DNA from: a virus
Direction: 5' to 3' (one strand)
Length of the DNA: 25,962 bases
IMG/VR virus record: IMGVR_UViG_3300030333_005778
Coordinates: 1-25,962 of that record
In this document: piece by piece, positions 1,791 through 25,072 of the stretch
Layout: every line of letters starts with the position of its first letter
How positions within the stretch are numbered: position 1 is the stretch's first letter
The notes under the pieces: generated by a model
Told to the model about the DNA's origin: nothing
Databases searched by the model: none
The model's input: only the letters and a program-made list of their open reading frames with translations
Translations under genes and position numbers: made by a program

Positions 1791-4055
1791 ATGGCTGCAT
1801 TTACTGTATCTCAATACGGAAAATTTGTTTCTCTCCAGAATAATTCTGGATCTGCCGATGCTGCTGCCCCAAACGGAGGGATTTATCTCTTCGCCTCTGG
1901 TGCTGTTGGATCTGCTAGACTTTACCTTCAAAACGAGGGTGGTACTGTTACCGACCTCGCTAAAGCTGTAGACATTGATGCGTTTACTGCTGGCTCAAGC
2001 CTTCACCAGACACAAGACCACTTCTTGTTCTCTGACAATGGAACTGAGAAGAAAATTACCTTCTCCGATCTTGAAGACGCTATCTTCGGGAATGTCTCCG
2101 GCGATGCCGCAATCGCTGCTGGCGGTGCTTTGACAATTGCTAATGACGCTGTTGAGCAAGCAATGATTGCTGATGACGCTGTTGGAGCTGATCAATTAGC
2201 TGCTAACGCTGTTGTCAATGCCTCTATTGCTTCCAATGCTGCAATCGATATGGACAAGCTTGATGGTGGATCTTTGGCTTCTTCTTTAAGTGACCTTGCT
2301 CAAGGTGACTTGCTTTATGCTGGAGATGTTGATGATTCTAACAACATCAAGTCTATCACGTTCTCTGACCTCGAAGACGCTATCTTCGGAAATGTCTCCG
2401 GCGATGTCGCAGTCGCAGCAGGTGGTGCTGTCACCATCCAAGCTGATGCTGTTGAAAGCGGAATGCTCAACGACAATGTTATTTCTGGTCAAACAGAATT
2501 AGCTTCTGACGGACTTGCTGCTGCCGATGAGATGATGATCTCTGACGGTGGAACCCTTAAGAAGATCGGCGTTGACAATCTTATGAAAGATGCGCCGGGA
2601 CTTCTTGCTGCTGCTGATGTGGCTGTCGGCGATGACCACTTCATGTTTCTCGATGGCGGCGCAACTGGCGATGCTAAGACTGAATCTGTTGCAGACCTTA
2701 TGACTGCTGTTGCAGGTGATGGTCTTGCTGCTTCTTCTGGTGTTCTTGCCGTTCAGGCTTCTGGTTCTGTAGTACTCAGCTCCGATAAGCTTGGGATTTC
2801 CGGATCCATTGCTGGCGATGGTCTTACCTATGCCGGAGGGGTTAACAGTATTTCAAGCCTTAAACTCGACATCTCCGAATACAGTGATGTTGCAGTCGCC
2901 TCTGGTGACAAGTTCTTAATGCTTGATTCTAATGGGTCTACCCACCAACTTGAAAGCGTTGATGATATTTCTACTTTTATGGCAGGTGATGGTCTTGCTG
3001 CTTCTTCTGGTGTTCTTGCTGTTCAAGTTGACGACACTGGTATTGAGCTTAACTCTGATGCTCTCCGCCTCAAGGACAATGGTGTTACTCTTGCTAAGAT
3101 GGCAGGTATCACTAGAGGTTCTATCATCGTAGGTGATTCATCTGGTGACCCTTCACTTCTTGCAAAAGGTTCTGCTGCCCAGTTCCTCCAATCTGATGGA
3201 ACTGATCCGTCTTATGTAACAATTTCTGGTGACGCTACTGTGGCTGCTGGTGGTGCTCTTACAATCGCTAACGACGCTGTTGAACAAGCAATGATTGCAG
3301 ACGACGCTGTTGGTGCTGACCAATTGGCTGCTAACGCTGTTGTCAATGCTTCTGTTGCATCTAACGCCGCTATTGAGGGAACAAAGTTGAACCTCAACGT
3401 TGATATGGGCGGAAACTTCCAAATCGGTAACCAGTCTGACGATGTTGCTGCTTTTGGTGGACCAATCAAGGTTGGCGGAAACTCAATCTTTGACGGCGGA
3501 AGCAATAGCTCCATCACATTCGATGGCTCCGGAAACACTCAGGCTGTTAATAACCTCACTGTTGGTACTGACGGCGGTGGAAAGCAGTTCACTGTTCACG
3601 GCGCAGCTGCAAATGAGTTTATGCGTTACGTACCGGGCGACAACCAGTTGAAATTCCAAGACTCTTCCAGTGGAACTATCTTGACTCTTGGTGGTGATGC
3701 AACTGGCGAGTACGCTGTGGATGTTACAGAGGGGTCAAACAACATTAATAAGATCCGTGCTGCCGCATTCGTTACTTACTCGGATGAAAGTTTAAAGCAA
3801 GATGTTCAAACAATGAACACTGCTCTTGATACTATCATGTCCTTGAATGGTGTTGAGTTTACTTGGAAAAACTCCGGTGAAAGAGACTTCGGTTTCATCG
3901 CTCAAGACGTTCAAGCTGTGCTTCCAAAGGCTGTTCACGTAGCATCTGATGGAGTACAGGGGGTTGACTATTCAAGACTTACTTCGGTTCTTGTTGAGGC
4001 TGTTAAGGCACAGCAAGTTCAGATTGAAGAATTGAAAACACTCCTCAAGAAGTAA
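1791..4055 (+). CDS. Fibre- or spike-like virion protein with C-terminal Peptidase_S74 chaperone domain
   Basis: The protein has 754 residues and a GGGAGGA site 7 bases before the ATG. The shaft (about 60-570) is low in charge, rich in Ala/Gly/Asp/Ser, and built from repeated units such as SDLEDAIFGNVSGD and AGDGLAASSGVLAVQ, as in trimeric phage fibres. The last 91 residues are an intramolecular chaperone domain: SDESLK places Ser664 five residues before Lys669, the Ser-Lys spacing of the autocleavage site in endosialidase-type S74 domains. GFIAQDVQAVLPKAV and the helix-rich end (residues 735-754) also fit the family. In known members the domain directs trimer folding and then cuts itself off. 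The gene lies in the head module rather than beside tail-fibre genes, so it could be a head fibre or a tail fibre encoded away from the baseplate block. The receptor is unknown. Confidence 0.85.
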   Translation: MAAFTVSQYGKFVSLQNNSGSADAAAPNGGIYLFASGAVGSARLYLQNEGGTVTDLAKAVDIDAFTAGSSLHQTQDHFLFSDNGTEKKITFSDLEDAIFGNVSGDAAIAAGGALTIANDAVEQAMIADDAVGADQLAANAVVNASIASNAAIDMDKLDGGSLASSLSDLAQGDLLYAGDVDDSNNIKSITFSDLEDAIFGNVSGDVAVAAGGAVTIQADAVESGMLNDNVISGQTELASDGLAAADEMMISDGGTLKKIGVDNLMKDAPGLLAAADVAVGDDHFMFLDGGATGDAKTESVADLMTAVAGDGLAASSGVLAVQASGSVVLSSDKLGISGSIAGDGLTYAGGVNSISSLKLDISEYSDVAVASGDKFLMLDSNGSTHQLESVDDISTFMAGDGLAASSGVLAVQVDDTGIELNSDALRLKDNGVTLAKMAGITRGSIIVGDSSGDPSLLAKGSAAQFLQSDGTDPSYVTISGDATVAAGGALTIANDAVEQAMIADDAVGADQLAANAVVNASVASNAAIEGTKLNLNVDMGGNFQIGNQSDDVAAFGGPIKVGGNSIFDGGSNSSITFDGSGNTQAVNNLTVGTDGGGKQFTVHGAAANEFMRYVPGDNQLKFQDSSSGTILTLGGDATGEYAVDVTEGSNNINKIRAAAFVTYSDESLKQDVQTMNTALDTIMSLNGVEFTWKNSGERDFGFIAQDVQAVLPKAVHVASDGVQGVDYSRLTSVLVEAVKAQQVQIEELKTLLKK
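2103..2246 (+). repeat. 48-codon internal repeat, copy 1
   Basis: This encodes DAAIAAGGALTIANDAVEQA... and matches the copy at 3231-3374 in 45 of 48 residues, while many third codon positions differ. Just upstream, the FSDLEDAIFGNVSGD unit starting at 2058 recurs exactly 300 bases later at 2358. These are shaft repeats of the fibre-like protein. Confidence 0.85.
2712..2749 (+). repeat. 38-bp exact direct repeat, copy 1
   Basis: The 38 bases are identical to 2982-3019, in the same frame, and encode AGDGLAASSGVLA. The spacing is 270 bases (90 codons). Unlike the 48-codon repeats, this pair has no synonymous differences. Confidence 0.9.
2982..3019 (+). repeat. 38-bp exact direct repeat, copy 2
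   Basis: Identical to 2712-2749 and in the same reading frame. Recombination between the two would delete exactly 90 codons in frame, shortening the fibre shaft without breaking the gene. Confidence 0.9.
3231..3374 (+). repeat. 48-codon internal repeat, copy 2
   Basis: Second copy of the unit at 2103-2246, offset by 1128 bases (376 codons). The protein is nearly identical but many codons are synonymously changed, so the duplication looks old and held by selection on the protein. Confidence 0.85.
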
Positions 4056-10246: not shown

Positions 10247-13200
10247 ATGTCAGCGAAAGATTACAAGTTTGTATCCCCCGGAGTTTTTATTGAAGAGATT
10301 GACAACTCCCAACTGCCAGATGTGGCTGTCGCAATTGGACCCGTGGTGATTGGTCGCTCTAGAAGAGGACCAGCATTTAGACCAGTTAGAGTACAATCAT
10401 TTTCCGAATTCATCACCCTTTTCGGTGACCCCGTTGCAGGACAAGAAAGTAGTGATGTATGGAGAGGCGGAATCCCAACCGCCCCAACATTCGCTGCATA
10501 CGCCGCTCAAGCTTGGCTTAAAAATAACGCTCCTTTAACTTTTATTCGCCTCCTTGGAGATCAACACCCACAGGCTTCAACAACAGATGACAATGCTATG
10601 GCAGGGTGGAAAATGGCTGCACAGTCTGGCGCTAGTTCTCCAAACGGTGGTGGAGCCTACGGACTTTTCCTATTTAACTCCGGTGCCGCAGCGGCTACTG
10701 AAGTAGTCGATGGAGCGCTGGCTGCTATTTTTTACTGTACCGAGGGTGCTCCTACGTTATCAGGTTCAATCAGAGATTCTGCCGGTGGATTTAATACCGG
10801 ATCTAAACTTACAGGATCTTCAGCGATGATATGTTCGCTCGACTCCAACCAGACTTTCAAAGTTAGAGTTTATAATAAAGCGGGAAATCGATTGATTACC
10901 TCTGAAGGCAATTCCGTAAAAGAAACAATTTTTAATTTTAGCAATTCATCTCAGAATTTCATTAGAAAAGTTTTTAATACAAATCCGACAAAAACAAATT
11001 CCCAGCTGATCAATACAGATATTGATTCAACAAATACATTCTTCTTGGGTCAAAGTTATGAAAGACACCTCAAGGACGTTCTCACCGAAGGAGCAAATAC
11101 CTATGGGTGTATAATGAGAATTGGTAATGGAACTACAATGGCAGATGGTGGTAACTTTAAATTCGCCACCACCATAGCTCAAACTGGATGGTTCTTCTCT
11201 CAAGACTTAAGAAACACCGCAGCAGATGCAAATCCGGATCTCAACGCTACCTTGAACCCGCAGTATAATCCAGAAAACAGCAATACGGTTACGAAGCTAT
11301 TTAAGCTTCACACTCTCTCTTGTGGAGAAGAAGAACAGCGACAGTTCAAGATATCTATTGAAGATATTAGATACTCCAAGAATGATAATAGCCCATATGG
11401 ATCTTTTACTCTTGCTATTAGAGATATTAGGGATACCGATGGGGCTAAGAAGTATGTTGAAAGATATACGGAGTGTAACTTGGATCCATCTAGTCCAAAC
11501 TATATTGCCAAGCAAATTGGAGATATGTATGTAGAATGGGACACCAGCAAGAAGAGATTGGTTGAGTACGGCTCTTATCCCAACATATCTAAGATTGTTC
11601 GCGTTGAAGTAGCATCAGCAGTTGAGTCTGGTCAGACAAATCCAGAACTTCTTCCATTCGGTGTTTACGGACCAACAAAATTAAAAGATTTCACAATGAT
11701 GAGCGACCAAGGAGTCGCTATAACAGGCAGTCAGGTAATCCAAACTCCAGCAAAATTTTTGAATGCGGGATCCGCTTCTGCCGCTACTTGTTTCGGTGCT
11801 GTTTCAGGGGCTGCTGGCGAAGGTCGTGTCCTGCTCGATGAAAATTCACATACAATCCCATTCACTGGTTCTGTAAAATTCCCTGCGCTGCCATTGAGAG
11901 TAAGCGCAACCGTAAATGAGTTATCTGACCCAACAGAAGCTTACTTCGGAGCGCAGTTTACAAGAGATACTGGCTCAGTAGTATTTGATCCAAGCACCCT
12001 TGATGTTCTCTATTCGCTCCCAAAAGGTGCTGGTGGTGCAGACGGGTTCTCCGCAGTCACTGATACAACTCAGGTATCTTGGTATTTCAGCTTGGATGAC
12101 CTTCAACACGCAGGCTTGGGCGGAGAAAACGGAGGAAACACATCTGGTTCCGTTTATTACGCATCTGGATCTAGATCTAGAGGAACTTCGATTACTGCTA
12201 TGACAGGATCTTACAAGGCAATTCTTGATAAAGGATACGATAGATTTACGTCACCGCTCTACGGAGGATTCAATGGGTTTGACATTACAGAAAAAGAACC
12301 GTTTAATCAGAGGGCTCTCCTTGAGACATCGACTCCAATTGGCTATGCTATGAACTATTCTGTCAAAAAAGCAGTCGATATGTACGCAGACGCAGAGTTC
12401 ATTGAGGGTAACATCTTGGCTGCTCCGGGTATAGTCAACGAGGGTCTTACAACTTCTATGGTTGAGGTTGCCGAGGGTCGAGGAGACACACTGGCTATTA
12501 TTGACCCGAGAGGCGGGTACACCCCTTCTTCCGAAAATTACAAATCAGAGAAAGAAAGAATCGTAACAAACCATGTTAACGATGTTGTTAACAAAATGAC
12601 TTCTCGTAACCTAAACTCAAGCTATGGTGCCGCTTACTATCCTTGGGTTAGAATCACAGACACGATTTCAGGTCAGGGAATTTGGGCACCACCTTCCGTG
12701 GCAGCTTTAGGAGCATTGTCTTTCTCGGAAAGACAATCAGACCTCTGGTTCGCACCAGCAGGATTCAACAGGGGCGGATTAACTCAAGGCGCAGCAGGAA
12801 TCCCAGTAACGATGGTAAGAAGCAAATTAACTTCCAAGGAAAGAGACGAGCTTTATGATGCAAACATTAATCCTATCGCTACTTTCCCGAATGAAGGCAT
12901 TGTGATCTTTGGTCAGAAGACGCTACAAGTTACTCCTTCTGCCTTGGATAGAATTAATGTAAGAAGATTGATGATCTTTGTGAAGAAAGAAATTTCTAGA
13001 ATCGCAACAAACTTGTTGTTTGAGCCTAACGTTGATGCTACTTGGAATAGGTTTAAAACACAAGTTAATCCATTCTTGAATAATATCAAGAATAACTTTG
13101 GATTAGATGCCTTTAAGGTCGTCTTGGACAAAACAACAACCACGCCAGACCTTATTGATAGAAACACAATCTATGCTAAGATTTTCTTAAAACCGACCAA

Positions 13201-13264
13201 AGCTGTTGAATTCTTCGCAATTGATTTTGTTATTACAAACTCTGGTGCTGGGTTTGAGGATTAA
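10247..13264 (+). CDS. 18: Contractile tail sheath protein, T4 gp18-like
   Basis: A 1005-residue protein with AAAGGAG 9 bases before the ATG. The N-terminus is diagnostic: FVSPGVFIEEIDNSQLP, GPVVIGRSRRGPAFRPVRVQ, FSEFITLFGDPV. The C-terminal sheath domain (about 690-1005) has YPWVRITDTISGQGIWAPPS, LINPIATFP-like NPIATFPNEGIVIFGQKTL, RRLMIFVKKEISRIATNLLF with EPNVDATW, and a final KPTKAVEFFAIDFVIT strand pair used in the interlocking mesh between subunits. T4 gp18 is 659 residues, so about 350 extra residues lie in the middle (about 130-620), Gly/Ser/Thr rich and beta-like. These are probably surface domains on the sheath. Motif copy C lies just upstream. Confidence 0.96.
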   Translation: MSAKDYKFVSPGVFIEEIDNSQLPDVAVAIGPVVIGRSRRGPAFRPVRVQSFSEFITLFGDPVAGQESSDVWRGGIPTAPTFAAYAAQAWLKNNAPLTFIRLLGDQHPQASTTDDNAMAGWKMAAQSGASSPNGGGAYGLFLFNSGAAAATEVVDGALAAIFYCTEGAPTLSGSIRDSAGGFNTGSKLTGSSAMICSLDSNQTFKVRVYNKAGNRLITSEGNSVKETIFNFSNSSQNFIRKVFNTNPTKTNSQLINTDIDSTNTFFLGQSYERHLKDVLTEGANTYGCIMRIGNGTTMADGGNFKFATTIAQTGWFFSQDLRNTAADANPDLNATLNPQYNPENSNTVTKLFKLHTLSCGEEEQRQFKISIEDIRYSKNDNSPYGSFTLAIRDIRDTDGAKKYVERYTECNLDPSSPNYIAKQIGDMYVEWDTSKKRLVEYGSYPNISKIVRVEVASAVESGQTNPELLPFGVYGPTKLKDFTMMSDQGVAITGSQVIQTPAKFLNAGSASAATCFGAVSGAAGEGRVLLDENSHTIPFTGSVKFPALPLRVSATVNELSDPTEAYFGAQFTRDTGSVVFDPSTLDVLYSLPKGAGGADGFSAVTDTTQVSWYFSLDDLQHAGLGGENGGNTSGSVYYASGSRSRGTSITAMTGSYKAILDKGYDRFTSPLYGGFNGFDITEKEPFNQRALLETSTPIGYAMNYSVKKAVDMYADAEFIEGNILAAPGIVNEGLTTSMVEVAEGRGDTLAIIDPRGGYTPSSENYKSEKERIVTNHVNDVVNKMTSRNLNSSYGAAYYPWVRITDTISGQGIWAPPSVAALGALSFSERQSDLWFAPAGFNRGGLTQGAAGIPVTMVRSKLTSKERDELYDANINPIATFPNEGIVIFGQKTLQVTPSALDRINVRRLMIFVKKEISRIATNLLFEPNVDATWNRFKTQVNPFLNNIKNNFGLDAFKVVLDKTTTTPDLIDRNTIYAKIFLKPTKAVEFFAIDFVITNSGAGFED

Positions 13265-13322: not shown

Positions 13323-13934
13323 ATGGCAAATAAGAATTTTTGGGCTAGCGAGGCAGCGGAAGCAAAAAGAAAATATAGATATATATTGAGGGTCACCAAA
13401 GACTCAGGCGTCGGACCTACAAATACAGGATTTGAAGAGTGGTTAATCTCTAAGGTCACTCGACCAAGTTTTAGCATTAGTGAAACTAGCCATTCATACC
13501 TAAATCATACCTTCTACTTTCCCGGCAGATTGACTTGGAATGATGTTTCTTTCACTGTTGTTGATGCAATCAATCCAGATTCAACTGGTATTTTGATGGG
13601 AATGCTGGCTGCTTCTGGTTATGTGTTGCCTAAAAACGTCGCCGATAATTCAGCGAAAGGAACAATCTCGAAACAAAGCTCCATTATACACTTTACTCTT
13701 CAATCCATCGATGCGAGTGGTGACCCAATCGATGAGTGGTCTCTTAAAAATGCTTGGATCACCAGCACTAGCTTGGGAGAATTTGATTACACAGGCGACG
13801 ATCTCATGTCTTTTGATGTTACCTTGAAGTATGATTATGCTACATATGAAATAAAGAAAGGAACCGGTGGATTAACATCGAAGCAGACCAAACAGCTTAA
13901 GAAGCTTGAGAACCCCGGCAACGAAGTCACTTAA
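13323..13934 (+). CDS. 19: Tail tube protein, T4 gp19-like
   Basis: The 203-residue protein has the tail-tube order of elements: an N-terminal segment with KYRYILRVTK, a strand pair around WLISKVTRPSFSISETSHSY, FYFPGRLTWNDVSFTVVDAI, a helix (STGILMGMLAAS), and late strands IDASGDPIDEWSLKNAWITS and LMSFDVTLKYDYATYEI. T4 gp19 is 163 residues; the extra length is mostly a Lys/Thr-rich C-terminal tail. Hexameric rings of this protein form the inner tube through which DNA passes. It follows the sheath gene as in T4 (18-19). Confidence 0.9.
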   Translation: MANKNFWASEAAEAKRKYRYILRVTKDSGVGPTNTGFEEWLISKVTRPSFSISETSHSYLNHTFYFPGRLTWNDVSFTVVDAINPDSTGILMGMLAASGYVLPKNVADNSAKGTISKQSSIIHFTLQSIDASGDPIDEWSLKNAWITSTSLGEFDYTGDDLMSFDVTLKYDYATYEIKKGTGGLTSKQTKQLKKLENPGNEVT

Positions 13935-13999: not shown

Positions 14000-14872
14000 A
14001 TGAGTTCTAGAAATAATCAAGACCGTTTCGGAAGCGGATTAGCTCCCGATTCGGAACTACCCCCACCAGATACATATAGCCAACAAGAAGTGGCAACCCC
14101 AACAATGTCTTACGTTGTTCCCACGGAATTGGTTGACCTTCCATCAAGAGGAAAATTATATGCTCCCGATCACCCTCTCCACAAAAAAGAGGCACTAGAG
14201 ATAAGGCATATGACAGCAAAAGATGAGGACATACTTGTCAACCAGTCTTATTTGAAGAAGGGTGTTGCGATTGATAAATTACTTGAAAGCGTTATTGTGG
14301 ATAAAACAATCAAGATTCAAGATTTACTAGTAGGCGATAAGAACGCATTGATCGTAGCAACAAGGATAACAGGATATGGAGAGGAGTACATAACAAATGT
14401 TTCTTGCCCATCCTGCGGTACTGTAACTGAAAACGAATTCGATCTAGACGAGGCTACAACGATTAATGATCCGGATCTATCTTCATTCGGAGCATCAATG
14501 ACAGACGAAGGGACGTTTTTAATCACGCTGCCAAAAACTGGAGCAGTCGTTGAGGTCAGAGCCCAGATTGGCGCTGATGAGAAGAGGATGGCTAATCAAG
14601 AGGCTTCTAGAAAAAAGCACCGCCTCCCACCTTTGGGTTTGACAGATCAAATAAAAAATTATGTTCTATCAATCACAATTAATTCAGAACCAATAGATCA
14701 TCTTTCGTTTATTGACAATATGCCTGCGATTGATTCAAAGTACCTAAGAACTACTTACAAAAATATTATGCCTAATGTTGAGCTTGTTCAGCATTTTGAG
14801 TGCCCCGAGTGTGGATTTGAACAAGACTTGGAGGTACCGTTTACCACTGACTTTTTTTGGCCTAAGCAATGA
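14000..14872 (+). CDS. gp26-like baseplate / tail-assembly protein with zinc ribbon
   Basis: A 290-residue protein. The N-terminal 35 residues are Pro/Ser/Gln rich and flexible. VDLPSRGKLY (about 45-54) and IRHMTAKDEDILVNQSYL (about 68-85) are typical of the T4 baseplate hub gp26 group (the T4_baseplate family, as I recall it). Two Cys pairs, CPSC at 136-139 and CPEC at 268-271, should bind one zinc ion. The last codons TTT TTT TGG form a T-run, beyond which a second frame looks conserved (see 14852 and 14859), so this short product may be one of two. A tail-chaperone pair with a frameshift just before the tape measure gene is a very widespread arrangement in tailed phages. The gene lies between tail tube and tape measure, as that arrangement predicts. 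Confidence 0.75.
   Translation: MSSRNNQDRFGSGLAPDSELPPPDTYSQQEVATPTMSYVVPTELVDLPSRGKLYAPDHPLHKKEALEIRHMTAKDEDILVNQSYLKKGVAIDKLLESVIVDKTIKIQDLLVGDKNALIVATRITGYGEEYITNVSCPSCGTVTENEFDLDEATTINDPDLSSFGASMTDEGTFLITLPKTGAVVEVRAQIGADEKRMANQEASRKKHRLPPLGLTDQIKNYVLSITINSEPIDHLSFIDNMPAIDSKYLRTTYKNIMPNVELVQHFECPECGFEQDLEVPFTTDFFWPKQ
14852..14858 (+). other. Probable programmed frameshift site (seven T)
   Basis: In the gp26-like frame the codons are GAC TTT TTT TGG, four codons before the TGA at 14870. The downstream frame is shifted by +1 (equally -2). A P-site Phe-tRNA on TTT can re-pair perfectly on TTT after a +1 or a -2 slip. A simple -1 slip would not reach the downstream frame. Confidence 0.6.
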
Positions 14873-15047
14873 TTATATTCAAGGAGTGTATGAAGAGATA
14901 TTTCTCTTGAAGTATCATGGCAAGTGGAGCTTCATCGAGGCTTATAATCTTCCAATTCAAATTCGTCGATGGTTCTTAAGAAGACTACAAAAACAATTTG
15001 ATCAAGAAAACAAAGAAGTAGAGAAAGCTAGAAATAGATCAAGATAG
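14859..15047 (+). CDS. Frameshift extension of the gp26-like protein (gp51- or chaperone-T-like)
   Basis: This 62-codon frame has a protein-like sequence (GLSNDYIQGVYEEIFLLKYH, SFIEAYNLPIQIRRWFLRRL) ending in a charged helix. It has no credible start of its own. The in-frame ATG at 14775 is inside the gp26-like gene and would add 33 unnatural residues. The GTG at 14886 overlaps the only AAGGAG. The ATG at 14869 is in a third frame and gives 13 codons. Reading through by +1 at the T-run gives a 348-residue fusion. The YNLP...R..W pattern resembles C-terminal parts of tail-assembly chaperone fusions. In other phages such fusions recruit the tape measure and tube proteins. The coding evidence is good; the frameshift is inferred. 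Confidence 0.6.
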   Translation, partial: GLSNDYIQGVYEEIFLLKYHGKWSFIEAYNLPIQIRRWFLRRLQKQFDQENKEVEKARNRSR

Positions 15048-15081
15048 CCATAACCAACGGCTTATTTTGATCTTTTTTTTT
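15036..15081 (+). terminator. Strong intrinsic terminator after the frameshift extension
   Basis: A 14-bp stem with one bulged T (AGATCAAGATAGCC at 15036-15049 with 15059-15073) and a 9-base loop is followed by nine T. The TAG of the frameshift extension lies inside the stem. Confidence 0.9.
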
Positions 15082-15116: not shown

Positions 15117-15446
15117 ATGAAAAACAATACATCTGAGGAATTTGCCCCTGTTGAGATTGACTTAAACCCAGAAACCGTAGATGAGGGATACCTAAGAGCA
15201 CTTGGTTCCCAAATAGAATATGTTCTGAAATCAATGTTTGGCGGCTTTAAACCTGTTGCAAAATTTAAGGGAACAAAAAAACAATTGGGTCTCTTTGCCC
15301 GAGCCTTGGGCAATGAGAAGAGATACCTCAAAGACTTTGAAAAACACGGTTTAACTGACCCAAAAACTTTGAATAATAGACATAAATTAGAAAAGGCTAT
15401 TGCTGCTTTTGAAAAAGCGACAAAGATTAAATGGCCTTTCAAATAG
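15117..15446 (+). CDS. Small conserved-looking protein before the tape measure gene, function unknown
   Basis: A 109-residue protein with a perfect GGAGGAG and 6-base spacing, so strong translation is expected. Residues 12-27 are acidic (PVEIDLNPETVDEGYL). A helical middle (LGSQIEYVLKSMFG) is followed by Lys-rich turns (KFKGTKKQLG), and a helical end finishes WPFK. No Cys and no membrane segment. I cannot name a family. It lies 12 bases before the tape measure gene and just after the chaperone-like pair, so a role in tail assembly is plausible but is inferred from position only. Confidence 0.75.
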   Translation: MKNNTSEEFAPVEIDLNPETVDEGYLRALGSQIEYVLKSMFGGFKPVAKFKGTKKQLGLFARALGNEKRYLKDFEKHGLTDPKTLNNRHKLEKAIAAFEKATKIKWPFK

Positions 15447-15458
15447 GAAACCTTTTAA

Positions 15459-18149
15459 ATGGCTGAAGGCGACAACACAAATACTCCTGAACAAGAAAGC
15501 GAAGTGACGGAGCAAAAGAAAGAACAGCTAAAAATACTACAGGATTTAAACTCTGCCATCGAAAAGCAAGTGAGGTATGAAACTCGCAGGGCTCGAATGC
15601 GAGGCGAAGAGATAAGCAATACTCAAACCTTGGTAAACTTGCATGGTCAACAAGCCGAAGTTCAGAGGGAGCTGTTGGATATAGCTTTAGCTAAAACAAC
15701 AGACGTAGAAAAGCTGTCAGATCTAACCCAGAAACATATTAATATGATTAATGTGGAAGTAGAGAAGGGTAGAATGATAGCTGAAAATGGCGAAGCACAA
15801 AAGGCTATAGCTAATGAGATTTTAAATCTCAAAAGAGAAATACTGCAAAACACCGAGGAAGACAATACACAGCAAGTCGAAAAGTTAAAATTATTAACTC
15901 AAGAATTAAACAAGCAACAAGAAATATCTAAGGCACAAGAGGCAGGAACCCGAGCCGGAGCAAACTTGGTCAATAGCCTAGGATCTATGATCGGCTTTAA
16001 ACCAAACCCAGCGTTTAATGATTTCTTCCAGAGCCTGACAACCAGTGAGGGAGCAGCCGCAGGAGTTGGGAGTGCCTTCCGAGGCATTGCATCCCAAGCA
16101 GGAGAAGTTTTCTCCCTAGGAAATGTTCTTGGATTTGTTGCCGAAAACTTGTTTGAACTCGGTGTAGCTTTTGACGAAGTGACATCCAGCGTAACCGCAG
16201 CGACTGGTGCGAGTAGAGAATATGCATCTCAACTAGCTGCTGTAGCCTCTCAGAACGCAAAGTTGGGAATAACATTTCAAGAAACTGGACAAGCACAAAT
16301 AGCGCTTCTTTCCGATTTTCAACACTTCTCGGAACTCTTAGATGAGAATGGAAATCGAAATGTTGATTTGCAAAACAAAATTACAGCTACAGCATCTCAA
16401 CTATCTATGCTTGGAGTCAACGCCAGCACGACAGCAGGAAATTTAAATTTCTTGGTAACAAGCTTGGGATTAACTGCGGAACAAGCCGACACGACATTCC
16501 GAACTATGATTGAGCAAGGGGCTAATTTAAATATCCCCCCCGACCAACTTGCACAGGCATTTCAGACATTGCAACCAAGACTAGCACTTTTCGGTAAAAG
16601 AGCACCAGATATTTTTCAGAGAACAGCAGCAGCCGCAAAAAGCCTAGGTCTTAGTGTGGCAGATATGGGATCTTCTCTTTTCGCTCTAAGTGATGGATTC
16701 GATGAATTCGATGAAGCTGCTGGAAAAGTAGCCGCAGCTAACTTAATACTTGGTGGTTCTTTTGTTAGTTCTTATGAGATGGTGATGGCAGCAGCAGAGG
16801 GTCCGTTTGCTCAATTGGAGCTTCTAAGAGACGGCTTTGATAGAGCAGGCAGATCTCTTGGGGACATGCCCTTCTTTGAAAAACAAATGATGGCTAAGAA
16901 TTTTGGTATGGAGATCGATACTTTAACTGCTCTTATCGATGGAGAGATTAAAAGTCAAGAAGAATTAAATGCAATGCAAGCGGAGAATTCTAAATCAATT
17001 GAAGACATGGTTCGAGATGCTACTCCTATGCTAAAGGACCTCCAAGCCTCCTTGCAAAACATATTTGGAGATTTGTCTAGTATTCTAGGACCAGTGGCTA
17101 ACATCATCAATGGTTTATCCAGCGCTTTAGGTAACGGACTCGCCCCAGTCTTAATGGGTATTGCGACGTTTAGTGGATTAAAGTTCATATCCTTCTTTAC
17201 CAAAGGTAGAAAAGCCGCCGAAGAACAAGCAGAAGCAATAAAAGATCTAGTTAGTGAAATGAAAAACCTCCAAAAGCATCAACAGATCGCCGGACTTCAG
17301 GCACAAATGGAAGAGGCTAAATCACTGGCACGAGCAGATCTTCTAACAAAAGCCTCCCAAGGCGCTATAGAGCTTGAGGGAGATACTGTTGCAGCAAGGC
17401 TTGAATCGATTGAGGCTTTAGCTGGAGAAAGCGAAGCCGTGGTTGGATTAAAAAATCAGCTAGATGCACTGACAACTGTCCAAGATGACTCGACTGATGG
17501 TTCTAAGAAGCAGAGTATCGGAATGGGAGAATTGACGGATGCCTTTGGAGCCGCTACAGCATCCTTTGGAATGACAATGGGCGTTTTGGAAATGTTTCCA
17601 GCCAGTATGCAAAAGGGTGCAGCAGCGGCTGCAATGGCGCTAGGTGCAGTGGCAATTGGTGTGGCAGCGGTCAAGGGCGCAGCCGCCGGTCCTGCTGGAT
17701 TATTTTTAGCAGCAGCAGGGGCAGGAGCGCTCTTGGCTGGCATTATGAAATTTGTTTCCGCTGGAGACGAAGCCGGTACCGGAGCAGGCGGAGTTACAGA
17801 CATCGGCGCACTGGGAGAGACCGGAGGTTTCAACATATCTGACGGCGTTGATGACGCTATAATTCAAAGGTCGGGCAATGGAACAAATATCACGCCAATC
17901 CACAGCAGCGATCAATTAATAGCTGCTAAACCCGGAGGTCCAGTTGCAAGAGCAAATGGCGGAAATCTAGGCGGCGGCTCACAGATACCAGAAAGATTAA
18001 TAGCAGCACTTGAGACTTTGGCAGCCGGGATGAGGGGTCCTCAATCAACAGGCGGATCCGGCGCGGTAAATGTTACTATTGAATTGGATAAGAGAAAAAT
18101 GGGTCAAGCAGTTGTTGATATTATGAACAAGGAAATGTCTTTGACTTAG
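15459..18149 (+). CDS. Tail tape measure protein
   Basis: An 896-residue protein starting 12 bases after the previous stop. Residues 1-160 are predicted long helices rich in Glu, Gln and Lys (coiled-coil-like). The centre is Ala/Ser/Gln rich and helical. Two hydrophobic stretches, about 545-580 (IINGLSSALGNGLAPVLMGI) and about 720-770 (an Ala/Gly-rich run including VAIGVAAVKGAAAGPAGLFL), look like the membrane-active segments of tape measures. The C-terminus is Gly-rich and ends with a strand-helix (VNVTIELDKRKMGQAVVDIM) common at tape-measure ends. Length, composition and place after tube and chaperone genes support the call. No lysozyme or peptidase motif was noticed. The protein would set tail length and leave with the DNA. 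Confidence 0.75.
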   Translation: MAEGDNTNTPEQESEVTEQKKEQLKILQDLNSAIEKQVRYETRRARMRGEEISNTQTLVNLHGQQAEVQRELLDIALAKTTDVEKLSDLTQKHINMINVEVEKGRMIAENGEAQKAIANEILNLKREILQNTEEDNTQQVEKLKLLTQELNKQQEISKAQEAGTRAGANLVNSLGSMIGFKPNPAFNDFFQSLTTSEGAAAGVGSAFRGIASQAGEVFSLGNVLGFVAENLFELGVAFDEVTSSVTAATGASREYASQLAAVASQNAKLGITFQETGQAQIALLSDFQHFSELLDENGNRNVDLQNKITATASQLSMLGVNASTTAGNLNFLVTSLGLTAEQADTTFRTMIEQGANLNIPPDQLAQAFQTLQPRLALFGKRAPDIFQRTAAAAKSLGLSVADMGSSLFALSDGFDEFDEAAGKVAAANLILGGSFVSSYEMVMAAAEGPFAQLELLRDGFDRAGRSLGDMPFFEKQMMAKNFGMEIDTLTALIDGEIKSQEELNAMQAENSKSIEDMVRDATPMLKDLQASLQNIFGDLSSILGPVANIINGLSSALGNGLAPVLMGIATFSGLKFISFFTKGRKAAEEQAEAIKDLVSEMKNLQKHQQIAGLQAQMEEAKSLARADLLTKASQGAIELEGDTVAARLESIEALAGESEAVVGLKNQLDALTTVQDDSTDGSKKQSIGMGELTDAFGAATASFGMTMGVLEMFPASMQKGAAAAAMALGAVAIGVAAVKGAAAGPAGLFLAAAGAGALLAGIMKFVSAGDEAGTGAGGVTDIGALGETGGFNISDGVDDAIIQRSGNGTNITPIHSSDQLIAAKPGGPVARANGGNLGGGSQIPERLIAALETLAAGMRGPQSTGGSGAVNVTIELDKRKMGQAVVDIMNKEMSLT

Positions 18150-23884: not shown

Positions 23885-25072
23885 TTGTTATTCCAAGCTC
23901 TAGATGAAAAAGAAAAATGCATCGGAATATGCATCAACGGACAAATTCACAAAAACCTACCAGAAGATATAAGTCGAACTTGGAAATATTCCACATTTCT
24001 TAAAAATTATAATGTTGAATACGCAAATATCCTTTGCGAAGGCAAGTCCTTGGGAGAAGTCTGCCCTGATGAACTTAAGGGTGATTACGACCGTATCTGG
24101 TCAAAACTTAAGGCATTTTACAAATCTTTTGCTATAGCAAAGATCTCAATGCAGGATCATTGTTTTTTCGATCTTGTACCCGAGGGCTTTTTAAAAGAAT
24201 TTTGTATGCTTAAAGATAAAATCACTCAACATGTTTTTGATAAATATGAGCGCCCCTCCAATTATACCAATATGGTGGAGATCACAAAACTAGTCACAGA
24301 AATTAAACACCAAAAGTTAAACATAGACTTATCAGTCCTCAACAATGATCTCGCTGATCATCGAACCAAAGAGTTTTATAAGAAAATTCATAGAATAGAG
24401 CCCTATATCAAATACAACCCCTTCGGAACAAAGACGGGAAGATTGACTACCAATAAGAATTCATTCCCAATATTGACAATGGATAAGAAATTTAGAAAGG
24501 TTATCAAGCCAACCAACGATTGGTTTGTTGAGTTTGATTATAACGCAGCAGAACTGAGGGTTCTCTTAGGGTTGCTCGGAGAAAAACAGCCCCCAATAGA
24601 CTTACACCAATACAATTCTCTTGAACTATTTGGTGGAAATATAAGCAGAGACGAAGCCAAGAAGCGTATTTTTTCTTGGCTATACAATCCAAATGCCAAA
24701 GACGAAACTCTCTCTAAGCTTTATGATAGGGAAGCTATAAAAAAAGAATATTGGGATGGTACATCGGTAAAGACTACATATCACCGAAATATTTTATCGG
24801 ACGAGTATCATGCTCTCAACTACATAATTCAAAGCACTTGCAGCGATTTGATTCTTGATAAAGCTATCATAATATCGGAGATGCTTGCGGGAAAGAAAAC
24901 AAAAATTGCATTTGTAATTCACGATAGTATTGTGCTAGACTATGCCAATGAGGATGGCACGTTTGTCAACGATGTATATTGGGAATTTATGGATACGCCG
25001 TTTGGAAGATTTAAAACTAACGTTGCTGGTGGAAGAAACTTTGGGGAAATGAAGGACTTATGGATATATTAA
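23885..25072 (+). CDS. Family A DNA polymerase catalytic domain without exonuclease
   Basis: A 395-residue protein starting at TTG, with AAGG 6 bases before; the first in-frame ATG is near residue 89 and would remove much of the N-terminal region. Family A residues, E. coli Pol I equivalents in brackets: TGRLTTN with Arg186 (R668), motif A DYNAAELR with Asp218 and Glu223 (D705, E710), motif B R255-x3-K259-x3-F263-x3-Y267 (R754/K758/F762/Y766), N312-x3-Q316 (N845/Q849), motif C IHDS with Asp347 (D882). The Glu after the motif C Asp is Ser. Motif A to C spans 129 residues, against 177 in Pol I, so fingers/palm insertions are reduced. I see no 3'-5' or 5'-3' exonuclease motifs. It lies in the same run as baseplate genes and overlaps the next gene by 13 bases. 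Confidence 0.85.
   Translation: MLFQALDEKEKCIGICINGQIHKNLPEDISRTWKYSTFLKNYNVEYANILCEGKSLGEVCPDELKGDYDRIWSKLKAFYKSFAIAKISMQDHCFFDLVPEGFLKEFCMLKDKITQHVFDKYERPSNYTNMVEITKLVTEIKHQKLNIDLSVLNNDLADHRTKEFYKKIHRIEPYIKYNPFGTKTGRLTTNKNSFPILTMDKKFRKVIKPTNDWFVEFDYNAAELRVLLGLLGEKQPPIDLHQYNSLELFGGNISRDEAKKRIFSWLYNPNAKDETLSKLYDREAIKKEYWDGTSVKTTYHRNILSDEYHALNYIIQSTCSDLILDKAIIISEMLAGKKTKIAFVIHDSIVLDYANEDGTFVNDVYWEFMDTPFGRFKTNVAGGRNFGEMKDLWIY

Follow-up and report, generated by a model that had tools for sequence, protein, structure and literature searches.

The question raised by this locus is how a short open frame that lies behind a run of seven T residues, at the 3' end of a gp26-like gene, comes to be translated. 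The analysed DNA, referred to here as the window, is the whole of the 25,962-base virus record IMGVR_UViG_3300030333_005778. The initial annotation had described a 62-codon frame (hereafter frame B) with clear protein character and no believable start, which would be entered by slippage at the T-run; its coordinates and frame arithmetic are right, and the upstream ATG (14775) lies inside gp26 and is absent from many relatives. The reading that we favour, with a probability of roughly 0.9, is that the locus is the tail assembly chaperone pair (TAC-N/TAC-NC) of a T4-type myophage, the long form of which is made via a +1 shift. The features concerned are the following.

10247–13264: sheath gene, upstream of the tube gene
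13323–13934, + strand: tail tube gene, upstream of the chaperone gene (phrog_4542, E 6.1e-21)
14000–14872, + strand: zero-frame ORF, gp26-like tail assembly chaperone, short form (TAC-N), 290 amino acids with two CxxC zinc-finger-like motifs
14000–15044, + strand: predicted frameshift fusion (TAC-NC), 348 amino acids, translated with one +1 step at the site
14852–14863, + strand: shift-site dodecamer TTT TTT TGG CCT, identical over four codons in 149 of 161 loci
14855–14861, + strand: putative +1 shift core UUU_UGG_C, deduced from the sequence and from the variant sites CUU_U and UUU_C
14859–15047, + strand: frame B (TAC-C domain), 62 amino acids plus stop, from GGC 14859 to TAG 15045–15047 in the +1 phase
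14870–14872, + strand: zero-frame stop TGA, end of the short form, three codons (CCT AAG CAA) past TGG
15036–15080, + strand: terminator-like stem-loop and T-run right after frame B (−17.6 kcal/mol, z −6.4)
15117–15446, + strand: small ORF of 109 amino acids in the interval between the chaperone and presumed tape measure genes, no family above threshold
15459–18149, + strand: presumed tape measure protein, 896 amino acids, assigned by position and size, no family match

Over most of its length, the zero-frame product matches PF12322 (T4_baseplate; E 4.6e-14, 53.1 bits against a cut-off of 24.5) and phrog_150 (E 4.7e-16 in a profile search), both of the gp26/gp51 family. The label "gp26-like" in the initial annotation is correct, and tail assembly chaperone is the better name. 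Its position between tube and tape measure, likewise pointed out before, holds with the tape measure assigned by size and synteny: 15459–18149 is presumed to be the tape measure gene from its position and size and from synteny with annotated relatives, the equivalent gene carrying a tape measure annotation in Flavobacterium phage immuto and Bacillus phage SP-15. Since a strong terminator-like stem-loop, followed by nine T residues, sits 3' of frame B, the latter is probably part of the gp26 transcript; a consensus terminator scan of the window did not report this hairpin. No tRNA genes were found in the window. Elsewhere in it, a fibre-like ORF (1791–4055) carries a C-terminal Peptidase_S74 intramolecular chaperone domain (PF13884, E 2.2e-16), and a TTG-start ORF directly past the structural module (23885–25072) is matched by DNA polymerase profiles in a small central part only (phrog_17, E 6e-15).

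The gp26-like ORF ends with GAC TTT TTT TGG CCT AAG CAA TGA, in which the T-run occupies 14852–14858 and the zero-frame codons are TTT (14852), TTT (14855), TGG (14858), CCT (14861), AAG, CAA and TGA. The +1 frame is already open from 14748, and a mechanical ORF call starts it at the ATG mentioned above; upstream of GGC 14859, protein conservation is absent from this frame. When IMG/VR was searched with the window gp26, 80 loci of 45–82% identity were obtained, in all 80 of which a homologue of frame B lies in the +1 phase as well, and a second scan with gp26 of Microcystis phage Mel-JY01 as the query yielded 80 more. In the set of 161 loci composed of both scans, the window, L082 and L083, less two second-set loci that have no gp26 stop, the P-site holds YTT with T as the next base, and the zero frame ends 3, 4 or 6 codons beyond the P-site. 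A third, independent scan with gp26 of immuto found the site in 75 of 80 loci and a variant site in 4 more, and among 12 MAG contigs fetched, the 11 long enough to be read all have the +1 arrangement. Overall, the pattern is kept in about 250 related loci, including the isolated phages Mel-JY01 and immuto; the comparison with related phages that the initial annotation had named as a check has thus found both the T-run and the overlap conserved. One gp26-like gene with the same +1 site (L245, 3001–3937) resides on a contig titled candidate division WOR-3 chromosome (CP070664.1), as a provirus or else as a phage fragment that was binned with, or joined to, the genome. A single homopolymer in one metagenome contig might point to a mistake of sequencing or assembly, or to a pseudogene in decay, and an error of one T that merges the two frames had been anticipated as a way for the proposal to fail; none of the approximately 250 assemblies merges them, isolates and homopolymer-free sites are among these loci, and frame B is under purifying selection, so that an artefact of this kind is practically inconceivable.

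The 12-mer TTTTTTTGGCCT at the shift site is almost invariant, silent positions included, and the information content of the dodecamer is about 1.8–2 bits at every position. Because many loci are near-copies, the 161 loci were reduced to 114 representatives at 90% nucleotide identity. Among these, all 111 Phe codons at the P-site read TTT, compared with 74% elsewhere in gp26 (p ~5e-15), and the Pro codon after the site is CCT in 113 of 114, compared with 24% elsewhere in gp26. The CCT bias is partly due to the +1 frame, which reads GGC-CTN (Gly-Leu); in L244, the site carries TGG TCT, by which the Pro is lost and the Gly-Leu is retained. Across the collected loci, 190 of the 201 occurrences of TTTTTTTGGCC are at the shift site. 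Past the zero-frame stop, substitutions in frame B are distributed over the three codon positions as 6816/3273/13603 (554 pairs, which are not independent events), and those between the window and its close relatives as 63/17/120. The protein character ascribed to frame B at the outset is borne out by these third-position-dominated changes, on which the frame is under protein-level (purifying) selection. Taken at the level of sequence comparison, the conserved +1 overlap, the shift site, the direction and the selection on frame B are well supported.

Frame B might nevertheless be a separate small gene with its own start codon, translated by re-initiation after TGA 14870. An ATG stands 7–10 bases past the zero-frame stop in about half of the first-set loci, and TAATG or TGATG occurs in several phages of a −1 group described below; in a distant relative, a 595-kb uncultured huge phage (L088, at ~3271), the C-domain starts from an ATG of its own (TAATG), the gp26 ahead of it being longer and lacking the T-run site. 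However, the window has ATT at the position of that ATG, many relatives likewise have no start codon there, the G-L-x-x-x-Y residues ahead of it are conserved in frame B, and many loci have no start of any kind ahead of the domain: 31 loci have an upstream stop no more than six steps away, and in 12 of these none of the opening 25 frame-B codons is ATG, GTG or TTG. In 19 loci, a +1-frame stop lies three codons before GGC (four counting the stop itself), and entry therefore occurs within NNT TTT TTT GGC. Re-initiation is accordingly very unlikely and, for the +1 clade, we reject a separate gene on the startless loci and the conserved residues upstream of the ATG position. Homologues that start the second frame at an ATG of their own, which the initial annotation had regarded as evidence against recoding, are mostly absent, L088 being the one distant relative with a clear ATG and no shift site.

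With entry placed at the site, the direction of the shift has to be decided, as the seven-T run of the window by itself permits both +1 and −2, the two possibilities put forward originally. The +1 frame is kept at TTT CTT TGG (3 loci of the first set and 34 of the third), at TTC TTT TGG (3 loci) and CTT TTT TGG (3 loci), at TTT CTA TGG (4 loci) and at TTT CTA TTC (L087). The longest T-run is only 3 in 38 loci and 4 in 3 loci, in which frame and product are conserved. Re-pairing after a +1 step is full for UUU_U and UUU_C, and for CUU_U it includes a first-position G-U pair, known from prfB (PMC5009743). Slippage by −2, in which the ribosome would back up two bases to give a product with FFFGL, would be allowed by the seven-T run and has a precedent in antizyme expressed in yeast, where a −2 event mimics +1 (PMC10274946); the P-site tRNA would, however, be mispaired two bases back at TTT CTT TGG, TTC TTT TGG and TTT CTA, and the loci with short T-runs keep the same frame and product, which makes this course highly improbable. 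Slippage of RNA polymerase, producing mixed mRNAs some of which are in the fused frame, would be favoured by the run of seven T present in the window and most relatives, but is hardly credible when homopolymer-free sites (TTTCTTTGG, TTTCTATGG) keep the same +1 arrangement, since at such variant sites there is no homopolymer on which transcriptional slippage or a homopolymer error could act. Both transcriptional and −2 slippage are rejected on these non-homopolymer sites. Of the earlier proposal, programmed frameshifting at the T-run is strongly supported, and the variant sites of the relatives fit +1 and rule out −2; the accompanying remark that the shift departs from the usual −1 slippage of tail chaperones stands, the frame being +1 in all loci of the clade. 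In the gp26 tree, CTT sites occur on two or more separate branches, and TTT CTA arises twice inside CTT groups (bootstrap values only partly settle this), which suggests that functional shift sites were exchanged repeatedly.

In the predicted mechanism of the +1 shift, the majority of ribosomes would terminate at TGA 14870 and release the 290-amino-acid short form (TAC-N, gp26-like). A minority would slip forward when Phe-tRNA is on UUU 14855–14857 with UGG waiting in the A-site; the P-site Phe-tRNA would re-pair from 14855–14857 to 14856–14858, GGC (14859–14861) would be read as the next codon, and translation would proceed through frame B to give the 348-amino-acid long form (TAC-NC). From this arrangement we infer that cells would make the fusion, as the minor partner of the short form and with a chaperone function; such a role of the two predicted forms would follow from analogy and homology: as with lambda gpG/gpGT, the tape measure protein may be coated by many short and few long copies, with tube subunits recruited through the frame-B domain. 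The simplest mechanism would be that tRNA-Phe (or tRNA-Leu) slips of its own accord during the wait at a slow A-site codon. This codon is UGG, and sometimes UAC, UUC or CUA in relatives; natural +1 shift sites in prfB include UUU_U and CUU_U (PMC5009743). No Shine-Dalgarno-like element (purine-rich, −1 to −15) is conserved upstream of the site, and the downstream RNA at six loci folds no better than its shuffles (z −1.4 to +1.5), so that both types of stimulator are rejected. As neither was found, nothing other than the site itself accounts for the slip efficiency.

The short form and frame B were folded separately. AlphaFold gave a mean pLDDT of 83.9 for the short form and a three-helix domain with a pLDDT of 93.1 for frame B. 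The best hits of a structure search with the frame-B model are small phage proteins (TM-scores ~0.66–0.86, E-values 0.04–1), a resemblance that is suggestive only; searches of solved structures with both parts gave no convincing relative, the HK97 tail chaperone 2ob9 appearing with a non-significant E of 1.8. Against DUF6760 (PF20546), frame B scores 19.3 bits at best (E 0.0012), under the cut-off of 27. The −1-frame C-domains found in Kyanoviridae and other T4-like phages are matched by the frame-B profile (hhalign 96.1%, E 3.7e-9) and in turn align with the C-terminus of T4 gp51 (96.5%, E 9e-10). Direct hhalign of frame B with T4 gp51 is not significant, the link running through the −1 group, and the gp26 profile aligns weakly with T4 gp51 as a single sequence. 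T4 gp26 and gp51 both belong to PF12322, gp51 being a gp26-like part plus the C-domain in one frame; a fusion encoded in a single frame, for which the initial annotation had advised looking, therefore exists in T4 as gp51, beside the short paralogue gp26. From these homologies it follows that phages arrive at the same two products by three routes: +1 shift, −1 shift and duplication with fusion.

The phages of the −1 group, Kyanoviridae and other T4-like phages (Syn19, P-HM2, HTVC008M, phiN3, Ah1 and PG216), share with the window clade a homologous short form and C-domain with a T-run at the junction, but differ in shifting by −1 at U_UUU_UUY and in forming a separate clade of the gp26 tree. 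Of 28 representatives, 26 place the domain in the −1 frame behind NNT TTT TTY, and 8 lack any start codon as far as 30 bases beyond the stop. Some cyanophage and T4-like annotations of a "gp51 baseplate hub assembly catalyst" (among L171–L180 and L181–L233) start inside the −1-frame C-domain; the true product of such entries is probably the gp26 fusion.

The T4 short/long pair and the −1 group are rediscoveries of what was previously published. T4-like phages are described as having one short and one fused chaperone gene (Vladimirov 2022, as cited for PRFect, PMC10885494), and −1 poly-T signals are described in their TAC-N genes (Vladimirov 2022, Virology 566:9–15, as cited in PMC12846349). 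A 2016 review considers the G-T frameshift to be widespread in long-tailed phages except T4 (PMC5009743). As far as these citations convey, the T4-like chaperones of Vladimirov, Gautam and Davidson (2022) are a short/long pair of the same kind, with poly-T signals in some groups, and the signals are −1, whereas the window clade shifts by +1 at YUU_U or UUU_C. The part that appears new is the +1 form, with its wide distribution and its shift sites; no description of a +1 shift in the T4-type chaperone family was found in the open-licence literature. It seems quite probable that the direction of the shift changed from clade to clade within this family (+1 at YUU_U, −1 at U_UUU_UUY), T4 having an in-frame duplication instead, with the two products retained throughout, and that the +1 clade uses a minimal site without stop codon, Shine-Dalgarno element or RNA structure, having changed from UUU_U to CUU_U and UUU_CUA several times. 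These findings add a large group of T4-type phages, common in sea and lake water and for the most part uncultured, to those with a +1 tail-chaperone frameshift, and provide in one gene a natural series of +1 sites (UUU_U, CUU_U, UUU_CUA) useful for the study of forward slippage without a stop codon. They also correct the annotation of two deposited genomes of this clade, which either overlook frame B or list it as a hypothetical protein apart from gp26: in Mel-JY01 it is annotated as a separate hypothetical ORF, and in immuto a short downstream hypothetical is the only annotation there.

It is worth comparing this shift with those in other systems. The prfB gene (release factor 2) resembles the window clade in a P-site slip on CUU_U (sometimes UUU_U) into the +1 frame, but its A-site codon is a stop and a Shine-Dalgarno element stimulates the slip from upstream, in place of which the window clade has UGG, UAC, UUC or CUA and no conserved element. 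In three phages of Gram-positive hosts, SP-15 (L084, 2489–3229), Streptococcus phage GXN1 (L085, 2480–3229) and Listeria phage LIS04 (L086, 2438–3166), gp26 is followed by a startless +1-frame ORF without the T-run/TGG site; they share NCC CGA TTY, and their frame B is unannotated or shortened, which suggests a third type with a candidate +1 site at NCC CGA and CGA as the A-site codon. The tail chaperone of HSTV-2, a haloarchaeal myovirus, is very likely produced by a +1 shift (PMC5009743), and is thus similar to that of the window in being a +1 tail chaperone shift in a myovirus, the host of HSTV-2 being archaeal. Finally, lambda gpG/gpGT (PMC5009743), like the locus described here, makes its short and long forms from a single gene that lies shortly before the tape measure, with a shift near the end of ORF1. 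A further trait of the gpG/gpGT kind is that both products bind tape measure and tube subunits and do not occur in virions. The position, the startless overlapping frame under selection and the conserved site near the ORF1 end are all found here, and the −1 direction, usual in known tail chaperones and not defining for them, is not: lambda shifts by −1, whereas the window clade shifts by +1 and has a PF12322 N-domain with CxxC motifs.
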